Source: Candidatus Tumulicola sp. (GTDB taxonomy: Bacteria > Vulcanimicrobiota > Vulcanimicrobiia > Eremiobacterales > Eremiobacteraceae). Taken from it: DNA of 64,000 bases. Below the pieces are notes generated by a model. It had not been told where the DNA came from. It saw only the letters and a program-made list of their open reading frames with translations, and did no database searches. A program made the translations under genes and the position numbers. The stretch lies in NCBI GenBank assembly GCA_035601835.1, contig DATNNM010000003.1, positions 124,001 through 188,000 on the forward strand, in the 5' to 3' direction. Below, piece by piece: positions 34,501 through 60,016 of this stretch (position 1 is the first letter of the stretch; the number at the start of each line of letters is the position of its first letter).

Positions 34501-35107
34501 GCTGGGAGGCGTCAATCTCAACGCGCTGGAGGATCAGGCCGCGCTGGTCGAGCGCCGCGACTTCTTGCGCCATCAGCTGATCGACCTCGAGGAGGCGCGC
34601 AAGAGCATCTTATCGGTGATCGCCGACATCGACGCCGAATCGGTGCGCCAGTTCAACAGCGTCTTCGAAAAAGTCGCCGAGGCCTTCGGCGAGATGTTTG
34701 GGCGCTTGTTCAGCGGCGGCGTCGGCAAGATATGGCTCGCGCAGTCCGAGGACCCGGCCCTCGCCGGCGTCGAGATCGCCGCGCAGCCGCCCGGCAAGAA
34801 GATGCAAAGTCTGAACGCCCTCTCCGGCGGCGAGCGCGCACTGACGGCTGTGGCGCTGATCTTTGCGATTTTGAAGGTGCGCCCAAGCCCGTTTTACATC
34901 TTCGACGAGATCGACGCCGCGCTCGACGAGGCCAACATCGGCCGCTTCGGCGCGGTGCTGGCGGAATTCGCAAGCCGCGCGCAGATCGTGATCATCACGC
35001 ATAACAAGGCGACCATGACGCTCGCCGACCGCATCTACGGCGTCACCATGGGCGAACCGGGGGTCTCCAGCCTGCTTTCGCTCGCGCTGGAGCAGGTGGG
35101 TGCCTGA
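31556..35107 (+). CDS. smc: chromosome segregation protein SMC, apparent ATC start
   Basis: Condensin ATPase. Walker A VVGPNGSGKSNLVDAVRW, then long coiled-coil arms around a hinge (about residues 500-660, GRPGSVQAVLDARSAKRLRGIAG onward). The C-terminal head has LNALSGGERALTAVALIFAI and FYIFDEIDAALDE. The family opening is [M]YLKSI-LFGFKTFAERT; here the matching codons are ATC TAC CTA AAG from 31556. No ATG, GTG or TTG is in frame upstream, and the next one (GTG 31640) would remove the first strand of the head. GAGG lies nine bases before the ATC. From ATC the length is 1183, standard for SMC. Confidence 0.93.
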   Translation: MYLKSIDLFGFKTFAERTRLVFEPGISAVVGPNGSGKSNLVDAVRWTLGEQSAKQLRGSRMDEVIFAGNARRRPVGMAEVTLTFDNSDGALSTPFAEIAVTRRVYRNGEGEYFLNKSHVRLRDIMDLLLGTGLGPDASAIISQGEIDAILSAKPLARREVFEEVAGTSKYQARKQEAQRRLDQTETNALRINDVLMELERQVPAVEQQVRRAKRYQKVVGRLRDIEILSFLLKTQARRGERAGLAKTLGEEEAERADVERRRTQLEAEASRVRYEEYQASLALDERNAARSETAQALQEASSAQATAQARFEEMGRRCEALERDVDVAARASTAAEAEVATLVAQLAESRQRRDAAMHEVEQRSHAERTGAATWERAYARLREVEDRRAKAAARAAESEGALQAQNAVRDRAKATVAQLESDLATTREQLTAHGQRSEALANALADAHRALAAAADDLSLAQRAHTVATQALEEARADLESKRAAVAHSQARHDALQEFETSGHGRPGSVQAVLDARSAKRLRGIAGVVSELLDVDRQYAAAIDVALGPNAHALVTDTGENAQAAIAMLRSSRAGRATFVALDAVRQRELPLLEEARSRPGVIGLAADLVRCPSEARPAIEYLLGNVIVVDKLATALALGRAYAHASVVTVGGELVRDVAITGGSAEGEAGPLARRVAIADLAKALSEHQAIADAARDAVASAHRVLDEAAAARERAQQRRSEGFSARQDAAVGLERSKAEAEALARAGASFEEQLSDARVELGKAASEWQATERNAKTGRDAVAILEADRKKAAAESDALQNELTGLRERHRTAAADAAALVERVAQVGDDVEAARANVIDRRKAHEASASSLAQAKEEHSRSSKDAAATAGRRSEADSALAKIQSEADALRAKRDELAASARTLEERLSGEQQQGQERRLEFERHKMRLAEIDAELGVLQETFAQNPATPEECDDVAKRCAGYEGDADAEIRRLRDELARLGGVNLNALEDQAALVERRDFLRHQLIDLEEARKSILSVIADIDAESVRQFNSVFEKVAEAFGEMFGRLFSGGVGKIWLAQSEDPALAGVEIAAQPPGKKMQSLNALSGGERALTAVALIFAILKVRPSPFYIFDEIDAALDEANIGRFGAVLAEFASRAQIVIITHNKATMTLADRIYGVTMGEPGVSSLLSLALEQVGA

Positions 35108-36674
35108 CGCCGTAGCCCCCGTCGCGTTGCTCTCGCTCTCGGACCGGTCAGGCCTTGAGTCGCTCGCGCGCACGTTGGCGCGCCGCGGCTATCGGCTGAT
35201 AGCTACGAGCGGCACAGCGGCCGCCGTGCGCGCTTTCGGATTGACGTGCGAGGATATCGGCGACATCACGGGCTTTCCAACGTTGTTCGGCGGCCGGGTC
35301 AAGACGCTGCACCCGATCATCTTGGGCGGTGTGCTGGCGGACCCGCAAAGCGCCGAGCACGCGGCCGAGATGCGCGCGCACAAGATCCCGGCGATCTCCG
35401 TCGTCGCCGTGAGCCTGTATCCGTTCGAGAAGACCGTGACGAACGTGCGCGTGACCGATGCGGAAGCCGTCGAGCAGATCGACATCGGCGGCGTCACGCT
35501 GCTGCGCGCCGCCGCAAAGAATTTCGAGCGCGTAAGCGTCTTGAGCGATGCGGCAGCGTTCGAAGCGTTCGCGCGCGCCGCCGATGACGGCGGGCCGACG
35601 CTCGAACAGCGCCGACGCTGGGCAGCCACCGCATTCCGGCGCTGCGAAGACTACGATCGCGCGATCGCCCGCTACTTCAATGATCCGTCAAGTAGTGCCG
35701 GAGCTTTAGCTCCGGATGGCGGCCTCCATCTCGATCTTCCTCTCGCGGCCCGCGTGCGCTACGGCGAAAACCCGTGGGCGCTGGGGGCTTTTTTCGGCAC
35801 GATGGCGATGGAGCAGCTTTCCGGCAAGGAGCTATCATATAACAACTTGCTCGACGTCGACGCGTGCCTTAGACTGCTCGCGCCCATCGATGAGCCAAAG
35901 GGATTTCCGGCGGGCGTGCGCTCGCGCCGGCATGTACGCGGCGCGATCGTCAAGCACACCGTGCCGAGCGGCGTCGCCGCGCGCGACTCTGTCGCGCAAG
36001 CCTTAGCGGCCGCGCTCGGGGCGGATCCGATCTCCGCGTTCGGCGGCATCGTGGCATGCGATGCCGGCATCGACCTGGCGGCGGCGCAGCTGCTCAACTC
36101 GAGGTTCCTCGAAGTGATCGCCGCGCCCGGCTTCGATGCTGCGGCGCTGGAGCTGCTCGAGAAAAAGAAGAACTTGCGATTGCTGACCTTCGATCCGACG
36201 TTGCCGGCGCGGCTGCTCGCCGAGCCGAAATTGCGCTCGGCGCTTGGCGGACTGCTGGTCGAACGCCCCGATCCTGCGGCCGCGCCCGATGCGTGGCGCG
36301 TCGTCACCGAGGTCGAACCGACGCCGCCGCAGTGGCGCGACCTGCTCTTCGCATTCGCAGCGGTGCGCCAGGTCAAGTCCAATGCGGTGGTGGTGGCGGC
36401 GGACGAAGTGACGCTCGGCGTTTGCGGCGGGCAGACCAATCGCGTTGCCGCCGTCGAAATCGCATGTCAACGAGCCGGCGCGGCGGCGCGGGGCGCCACG
36501 CTCGCGACAGACGGGTTCTTTCCGTTCGCGGATGGCATCGATGCGGCGGCTCGCGCCGGCATCGCGGCCGTGGTCGCGCCGAGCGGTTCGATCCGCGACG
36601 AGGAAGTCATCGCAGCGGCGCGCAAGGCTGGCGTCGCCCTCGTTTTTTCGACGCGTCGCTACTTCTCGCACTAG
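35100..36674 (+). CDS. purH: bifunctional AICAR transformylase/IMP cyclohydrolase
   Basis: Last two steps of purine synthesis. The N-terminal IMP cyclohydrolase part has SDRSGLESLARTLARRG, TSGTAA, GGRVKTLHPIILGGVL and DIGGVTLLRAAAKN. The C-terminal transformylase part has RYGENP, LSGKELSYNNLLD and KHTVPSGVAA. 524 residues from GTG 35100, overlapping the smc stop. Oddities: the usual RYGENPHQ reads RYGENPWA, the usual KHxNPCG reads KHTVPSG, and the interdomain linker contains a palindromic insertion (35698-35715) encoding part of SSSAGALAPDGG. Confidence 0.94.
   Translation: MPDAVAPVALLSLSDRSGLESLARTLARRGYRLIATSGTAAAVRAFGLTCEDIGDITGFPTLFGGRVKTLHPIILGGVLADPQSAEHAAEMRAHKIPAISVVAVSLYPFEKTVTNVRVTDAEAVEQIDIGGVTLLRAAAKNFERVSVLSDAAAFEAFARAADDGGPTLEQRRRWAATAFRRCEDYDRAIARYFNDPSSSAGALAPDGGLHLDLPLAARVRYGENPWALGAFFGTMAMEQLSGKELSYNNLLDVDACLRLLAPIDEPKGFPAGVRSRRHVRGAIVKHTVPSGVAARDSVAQALAAALGADPISAFGGIVACDAGIDLAAAQLLNSRFLEVIAAPGFDAAALELLEKKKNLRLLTFDPTLPARLLAEPKLRSALGGLLVERPDPAAAPDAWRVVTEVEPTPPQWRDLLFAFAAVRQVKSNAVVVAADEVTLGVCGGQTNRVAAVEIACQRAGAAARGATLATDGFFPFADGIDAAARAGIAAVVAPSGSIRDEEVIAAARKAGVALVFSTRRYFSH
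35698..35715. repeat. TTTA-loop palindrome, copy 5, inside purH
   Basis: Perfect 7-bp stem CCGGAGC / GCTCCGG with loop TTTA, in frame within purH at about codons 200-206. It lies exactly in the linker between the cyclohydrolase and transformylase domains. It is preceded by GTAGTG, similar to the GTAGC leader of copies 2 and 4. Confidence 0.85.
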
Positions 36675-36680
36675 AGGATC

Positions 36681-37013
36681 ATGGCAAAAGCAAAACCCGC
36701 ACCGCGCGCCGTGGTCGCGTACGATTCGATAGCTGCGTCGATGACGAAAAAAGGCGGCGTCGAGGCGTCGCAGATGTTCGGCATGCCGACCCTCAAGGTG
36801 AAGGGCAAGGCGTTCGCCGGGCTTTTCAACGACGCGATGGTGTTCAAACTGAAAGGCGTGCATCACGCAGCGGCGCTGGCGTTGGCCGGCGCGAAGCTAT
36901 TCGATCCCATGGGCGGCAGGCCCATGAAAGAATGGGTGCAAGTGCCCATGAAACACGAAAGCGCGTGGGTCAAGTTGGCAGAGAGCGCGCGCGATTACGT
37001 GTCAAAAGGTTAG
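36681..37013 (+). CDS. TfoX N-terminal domain protein
   Basis: 110 residues. The core QMFGMPTLKVKGKAFAGLFNDAMVFKL and FDPMGGRPMKEWVQVP match the TfoX N-terminal domain family. These proteins are stand-alone relatives of the competence regulator TfoX, mostly without known function. It starts six bases after purH and ends ten bases before the selenoprotein gene, so the two may be co-transcribed. Confidence 0.8.
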   Translation: MAKAKPAPRAVVAYDSIAASMTKKGGVEASQMFGMPTLKVKGKAFAGLFNDAMVFKLKGVHHAAALALAGAKLFDPMGGRPMKEWVQVPMKHESAWVKLAESARDYVSKG

Positions 37014-37023
37014 GAGTCCGCTC

Positions 37024-37494
37024 GTGCTCGACGTCGAAGATCGCGCCCCTTCCATCGCAGTGCCGGATCAGAGCGGCAAACCGCGCACGCTCGGCGAGTT
37101 CGCCGGCGCGTGGCTGGTGCTGTGGTTCTATCCTAAGGACTTCACCAGCGGCTGAACCAACGAGGCGTCGCAGTTCCGCGACGCTTACCCGCAGTTCCAA
37201 GCCGCCGGCGCAGAAGTGATCGGCGTCAACCGCGATTCCGCAGAGTCGCACGCGAAGTTCCAGGGCGAACTCGCCCTCCCGTTCCCGCTGTTGGCCGACA
37301 CCGACGAGAAGTTGTGCAAAGCATTCGGGGTGCTCGTGGAGCGCGAGCACGAAGGCAAGAAGTTCATGGGCGTGCAGCGCTCGACGTTCCTGATCGATCA
37401 CACAGGCGTGATCCGCAAAGTGTGGCCGAAAGTAGACGTGACCGGGCACGCGGCCGACGTGCTCGCCACGCTGCTCCAACTCACAGCCGCTTAA
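37024..37494 (+). CDS. selenocysteine-containing peroxiredoxin (BCP/AhpC-TSA type)
   Basis: Thiol peroxidase-fold protein of 156 residues with TGA at codon 44 (37153-37155) read as selenocysteine. The context is WFYPKDFTSG-U-TNEASQFRD, where ordinary family members have FYPKDxTPGCT: the TGA replaces the peroxidatic cysteine. Upstream of the TGA the frame reads VLDVEDRAPSIAVPDQSGKP and downstream GAEVIGVNRDSAESHAKF through STFLIDHTGVIRKVWPKV, one continuous domain. AGGAG precedes the GTG start. A SECIS-like hairpin begins nine bases after the TGA. A Cys is also present in KLCKAFGV (residue 99), a possible resolving residue. Standard gene callers would report a truncated gene or pseudogene. Confidence 0.92.
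37165..37184 (+). promoter_or_regulatory. bacterial SECIS element candidate
   Basis: GCGTCGC / GCGACGC, a perfect 7-bp stem (37165-37171 with 37178-37184) with a 6-base apical loop AGTTCC. It begins nine bases downstream of the selenocysteine TGA. Position, stem length and a GU in the apical loop agree with bacterial SECIS elements recognised by SelB. The stem also encodes the conserved A-S-Q-F-R-D part of the protein, so part of the pairing could be coding coincidence. Confidence 0.8.
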
Positions 37495-59775: not shown

Positions 59776-60001
59776 GTGCCCGTCAAATTCCCATGATAAC
59801 GTAATGGCGTCGCGCGAGCGATCGCGCGCGCTCTCCCTGCGGTGTTCGAGAGCCCGCTTTGTGATTGAGTCAACATCATCACATAGGGAGCCGATCTCCG
59901 CTCCGCCTTGAGCAAGCCCTCCCCGTAGAGGGAAGCCTGTATCGGAGCGGGTGAGCACCCACCTGCAAGCGCAGGTTCAAGTCCCTGGCGGGTATCGGCA
60001 C
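59776..60001 (+). ncRNA. structured RNA candidate, 6S-like
   Basis: A gene-free stretch with strong pairing. CCGCTCCG and CGGAGCGG (around 59900 and 59945) form an 8-bp helix enclosing a smaller CCCT/AGGG hairpin. Further on ACCTGC / GCAGGT forms a hairpin followed by TCAAGTCCC. GTGCC (59776-59780) can pair with GGCAC (59997-60001) to close the whole. The CACCCACCT...AGGTTCAAG...GGCGG...CGGCAC series resembles the 3' half of 6S RNA, which regulates RNA polymerase. At about 226 bases it is longer than most 6S RNAs. It is not a tRNA: the T-arm-like GGTTCAAGTCC does not pair properly. Confidence 0.45.
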
Positions 60002-60016
60002 TTTGGGGTAGGCAAA

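Follow-up and report, generated by a model that had tools for sequence, protein, structure and literature searches.

The question raised by this locus is whether a TGA in the middle of a peroxiredoxin gene marks a stop, an error, or a codon for selenocysteine (Sec). The gene lies in a 64-kb stretch of DNA (G000:C3:124001-188000, here called the window) from a genome of the Ca. Eremiobacterota that is 2.57 Mb in size, 97.9% complete, and a draft in 18 contigs. The reading of TGA 37153-37155 as a Sec codon is strongly supported by sequence comparison, and we consider it highly probable that the gene as a whole encodes a cytosolic peroxiredoxin of the PrxQ/BCP type, into which Sec would be inserted at this UGA through SelB and a hairpin, and that would likely act as a 1-Sec peroxidase.

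A peroxiredoxin frame with one internal TGA

The gene (37024-37494, forward strand) is a single frame of 156 codons from a GTG start to a TAA stop, with the TGA at codon 44 as its sole internal stop, and its translation is VLDVEDRAPSIAVPDQSG...LVLWFYPKDFTSG-U-TNEASQFRDAY...RSTFLIDHTGVIRKVWPKV... The segment WFYPKDFTSG-U-T aligns with YFYPKD.TPGCT of solved PrxQ/BCP enzymes, and since the alignment with these structures is gapless near the site, the TGA stands opposite the peroxidatic Cys. Frame and alignment thus agree with an earlier note on this DNA, made from the sequence alone, which had placed a lone in-frame stop at the peroxidatic Cys codon. Automatic annotation had been expected there to split or discard such a gene, and the mechanical ORF list indeed reports only 37216-37494 (92 aa) from it. 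A Shine-Dalgarno-like AGGAG (37012-37016, forward strand) 7 nt before the GTG overlaps the stop codon of an upstream ORF (36681-37013, forward strand) that resembles TfoX_N at a score below the family cut-off (24.5 bits versus 30.1) and is probably on the same transcript; the next upstream neighbour is, by profile match, purH (AICAR transformylase/IMP cyclohydrolase; 35100-36674, forward strand). The sole Rfam match in the window is a 6S RNA (59831-60013, forward strand; 91.6 bits), which overlaps the start of an ORF listed at 59951, so that this ORF probably begins further downstream.

With Cys in place of U, the protein matches Pfam AhpC-TSA (E 4.7e-38) and PDB chains of PrxQ/BCP (up to E 2.2e-43). 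The AlphaFold model, built from the window and locus sequences, has a pLDDT of 92 and TM scores of 0.82-0.97 to PrxQ/BCP structures, so both the AhpC-TSA/thioredoxin-like fold and the best matches place the protein with PrxQ/BCP. The NCBIfam equivalog models score it below their curated cut-offs (116.7 versus 140 for PRK09437 and 135.8 versus 260 for PrxQDein). The PxxxTxxC/U motif and the catalytic Arg are present as Pro37, Thr41, U44, and Arg119, and Thr41 and Arg119 occur in all 116 aligned homologues. No signal peptide was seen in the protein.

All 12 relatives detected in the order (36-67% protein identity) carry the TGA at the corresponding codon, and so do another 22 genomes from the class. 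Reading codon 44 in homologues, a check named in the earlier note, gave 35 Sec (TGA) and 82 Cys (TGC/TGT) forms among the 117 homologues read across the phylum; a further one (L110), a Cys form whose sequence begins beyond residue 34, lies outside this set, and the site is Cys in those homologues that were read from other phyla. The frame had also been described as continuous on both sides of the TGA, which holds up in comparison with relatives: these align across the TGA, the frame is intact upstream and downstream of it, and third codon positions change most in 7 of 8 comparisons.

Selenocysteine machinery and the hairpin after the UGA

A Sec gene implies a Sec decoding system, as the earlier note had pointed out, and selA, selB, selD, and tRNA-Sec all occur in the same genome. 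The tRNA-Sec scores 77.1 bits (cut-off 47) and is called SeC(tca) by ARAGORN, selA (533 bits) and selB (312 bits) are adjacent on contig C11, with selA immediately upstream, and SelD scores 372 bits; a genome lacking selB or tRNA-Sec, which had been named as refuting Sec, is thus not what we found. Among the 35 genomes with a Sec peroxiredoxin, tRNA-Sec was not found in five (G009, G011, G071, G074, and G077), all of them fragmented drafts and four less than 90% complete. The association between tRNA-Sec and the Sec peroxiredoxin across genomes is weak (30/35 versus 46/71; Fisher p 0.04) because most of the phylum has tRNA-Sec, and it adds little to the case.

Five further genes in the genome carry an in-frame TGA at a Sec-type site. 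Three of these are the formate dehydrogenase FdhA (motif RTUHAPSV), an FdnG-like formate dehydrogenase of the Tat type (RVUHGPTV), and SelD itself (CAGU). The fourth, a periplasmic peroxiredoxin with an active-site TGA (L162; G000:C18:173129-173506, reverse strand), has the TxxU-like motif FFPLAFSAGUT, and the fifth, a UxxC redoxin with TGA in its UPFC motif (L161; G000:C18:127984-128358, forward strand; HWUPFCRRQ), is a probable further selenoprotein. After each of the five TGAs lies a hairpin with G within the first two loop positions; in the redoxin, the periplasmic peroxiredoxin, and SelD it is short (5-6 bp). The search for selenoproteins covered named families only, so that the six listed are a lower bound. 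The periplasmic peroxiredoxin has a signal-peptide-like N-terminus and adjoins a thioredoxin-like gene. At one formate dehydrogenase locus with TGA at the Sec site (L171; G000:C1:57624-59486), the match covers none of the first 50 positions of the model, which have a separate match on another contig (C11:1740-1889). TGA also serves as an ordinary stop in this genome, terminating the genes of a ketoacyl synthase, SMC, MnmG, AspRS, and a peptidase.

These observations bear directly on the other ways in which the TGA could be read. It is one base away from the Cys codons and the genome is a draft, as would suit a pseudogene or a sequencing or assembly error, but a TGA kept in all relatives found in the order is neither a sequencing error nor a fresh pseudogene; together with its presence in the further class genomes and the protein-like constraint on the frame to either side, this conservation refutes a broken or misread Cys codon, which we reject as having a negligible chance of being correct. 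TGA-as-Trp codes occur in some uncultured bacteria, and a reassigned TGA, or one read by a generic suppressor, would put a residue other than Sec at position 44. Such recoding is hardly credible here, where conserved genes such as those for MnmG, SMC, and AspRS terminate at TGA, all in-frame TGAs found lie at catalytic Sec/Cys sites, and a tRNA-Sec is present, and it was rejected on these grounds. The remaining reading takes the ORF list at its word, with a peptide of 43 residues followed by a separate product that starts at GTG 37216; that product would contain neither the catalytic residue nor the conserved NEASQF helix, however, and the alignment of relatives is continuous across the TGA, so that two products are very improbable and this reading was also rejected.

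For the Sec reading, the hairpin after the UGA is the remaining element. Beginning nine bases past the TGA, a stem (GCGTCGC, 37165-37171, with GCGACGC, 37178-37184) encloses the loop AGTTCC (37172-37177); this is the perfect 7-bp hairpin with a GU-containing loop that had been noticed earlier, and one G.U and one A-U pair lengthen it to 9 bp (37163-37186, forward strand). Published limits for a bSECIS are a loop of 3-9 nt, G in the first two loop positions, a distance of 16-37 nt from the UGA, and a free energy of at most -7.5 kcal/mol (PMC13188914), and the hairpin of the window gene lies within them, with a 6-nt apical loop (AGUUCC) that starts 16 nt after the UGA and -14.5 kcal/mol for the 9-bp hairpin. 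The region 37150-37205 folds at -23.9 kcal/mol (z = -3.7), which 0 of 200 shuffled sequences equalled. In our own scan of the 1418 TGA trinucleotides in the window, however, 11.6% were within the bSECIS limits and 1.1% had an equally stable hairpin, so that the hairpin by itself is only suggestive. What makes the comparative case for a Sec-UGA decisive is where the TGA lies and that it is conserved.

At the threshold of -7.5 kcal/mol, the bSECIS scan was passed by 21 of the 35 Sec genes and 5 of the 81 Cys genes of the phylum. The other 14 Sec genes, thirteen in family f3 and one in group 2 (described below), fail this simple hairpin test, which means that the SECIS is not uniform across the phylum, and several of the f3 genes may have an irregular SECIS without a simple hairpin. 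The Sec genes form two groups: group 1, the type found in the window, has its hairpin at 16 nt, and group 2 has another, near-invariant hairpin at 28 nt after the UGA (AGTCAGC-GGTCN-GCTGACT), in which 62 of 63 stem cells are paired and one pair switches from A-U to G-C. Group 2 (L025-L032 and L150) consists of divergent Sec-PrxQ proteins with 36-44% identity to the window protein, and nine other genomes in the window genome's family carry it instead of the window type. Cys genes that share the EASQF peptide keep the inner stem, and in 28 of 29 of them the outer pair +11/+28 is lost, most often owing to a Leu codon where the 3' arm otherwise has its Ala codon.

Probable catalytic cycle and the residue that switches with Sec

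In the peroxiredoxin family, the peroxide is held in place by Pro, Thr, and Arg residues for attack by the peroxidatic residue. For the window gene, we infer that SelB and Sec-tRNA(Sec) would recognise the hairpin just 3' of UGA 37153-37155 and that Sec would be inserted at residue 44 during translation. In the usual pocket of Pro37, Thr41, and Arg119, the selenolate of Sec44 would then reduce H2O2 or organic hydroperoxides and be converted to a selenenic acid, and the 1-Sec enzyme would most likely be recycled by an external thiol, either thioredoxin-like or of low molecular weight.

A resolving Cys is present in only part of the PrxQ/BCP family and is not required of 1-Cys members. The window protein has none at either of the known PrxQ positions in helix 2 and helix 3, which are occupied by Ser49 and Gln80, and only Cys98 is left. 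An atypical two-residue peroxiredoxin in which Sec pairs with Cys98 as the resolving partner would fit with the presence of Cys98 in 23 of the 35 Sec forms; against this, the residue is as common in the Cys forms (53/81), has been replaced in 12 Sec forms, and does not belong to the known resolving positions of PrxQ, and the aligned part lacks any other Cys in 11 of the 35 Sec homologues. We therefore regard a Sec-Cys98 pair as unlikely, and the same observations make the 1-Sec cycle the most likely one.

Codon 34 of the window gene is TGG (37123-37125, forward strand), and in the alignment of 116 homologues this column has Trp in 35 of 35 Sec forms and Tyr (79) or Phe (2) in 81 of 81 Cys forms. 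One additional sequence read by eye (L140) also fits the rule, which brings the Cys forms with Tyr or Phe to 82 of 82. Column 34 is the only alignment column that predicts Sec or Cys perfectly, with a mutual information of 0.883 bits, which is the maximum, compared to 0.396 for the next column. A tree for which residues 34 and 44 were masked requires at least 8 changes between Sec and Cys (about 8 inferred, 4 of them forced by supported branches) and likewise 8 between Trp and Tyr. On the supported branches, four of four independent pairs agree on Sec/Trp (sign test p 0.125), so that the phylogenetic support for the coupling is limited.

The coupling was also examined outside the phylum, in a pattern-based scan covering 396 genomes from the Acidobacteriota, the phylum of an Acidobacteriaceae genome. 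This gave two Sec-PrxQ candidates that have Tyr and Phe where the window protein has Trp34, and so ruled out a general Sec-Trp rule. Both candidates (L157 at 1501-1527 and L158 at 637-663) are PrxQ-type with TGA at the peroxidatic position, and one has a signal-peptide-like start. From these comparisons, we take Trp34 to be a partner or marker of Sec that is specific to the lineage, and not a requirement. A functional partnership within the lineage, in which the exchange of Tyr and Trp follows that of Cys and Sec and tunes the selenolate in its reactivity, its protection from over-oxidation, or its recycling, somewhat like the active-site Trp of glutathione peroxidases, is a tentative suggestion that we hold to be somewhat less probable than its opposite. 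The Sec-Trp coupling is the part worth following up. The family is a natural series of Sec and Cys enzymes in which one residue co-switches, and it offers a directly testable case of what else a swap from sulfur to selenium requires.

Relation to known selenoprotein peroxiredoxins

Selenoprotein peroxiredoxins are known, as the earlier note had stated. The Sec-containing peroxiredoxin (Prx, PF00578, TxxU) is listed as a prokaryotic selenoprotein family (PMC13188914, PMC1794560), with 91 TxxU proteins reported from 78 organisms (PMC5029168) and an entry in a 2026 review (PMC13188914). A search of mainly freely available literature for Eremiobacterota together with selenocysteine or selenoprotein found no paper. 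The enzyme type is thus already known, and what appears to be undescribed is its spread through the Eremiobacterota, always with one particular Trp. An uncultured phylum carries an active-looking selenoproteome in which standard annotation truncates the Sec peroxiredoxin.

The window protein shares with the prokaryotic Sec peroxiredoxins the PF00578 fold, the PxxxTxxU motif, the peroxidatic Sec, and the alternation of Sec and Cys between relatives. It differs from that group, which is taken at the level of the family and not by subfamily, in belonging to the PrxQ/BCP branch, and from NCBIfam PrxU in that it does not reach the model NF040737 (58.1 bits versus a cut-off of 270). Compared with the Cys-containing PrxQ/BCP of Xanthomonas campestris and the Burkholderia ambifaria enzyme 5enu, with which it has about 39-47% identity, TM scores of 0.82-0.93, and shared catalytic residues, it has Sec for the peroxidatic Cys and Trp34 for Tyr, and relative to the Xanthomonas enzyme, it is without the resolving Cys at the C84 position. 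Further Cys counterparts are PrxQ proteins of other Ca. Eremiobacterota (for example, L051 and L053), with up to 62% identity and the same motif; these have TGC/TGT, Tyr34, and a hairpin whose outer part is usually disrupted, whereas the window gene has TGA and Trp34 and adds a member of the PrxQ branch to the established Sec peroxiredoxins.
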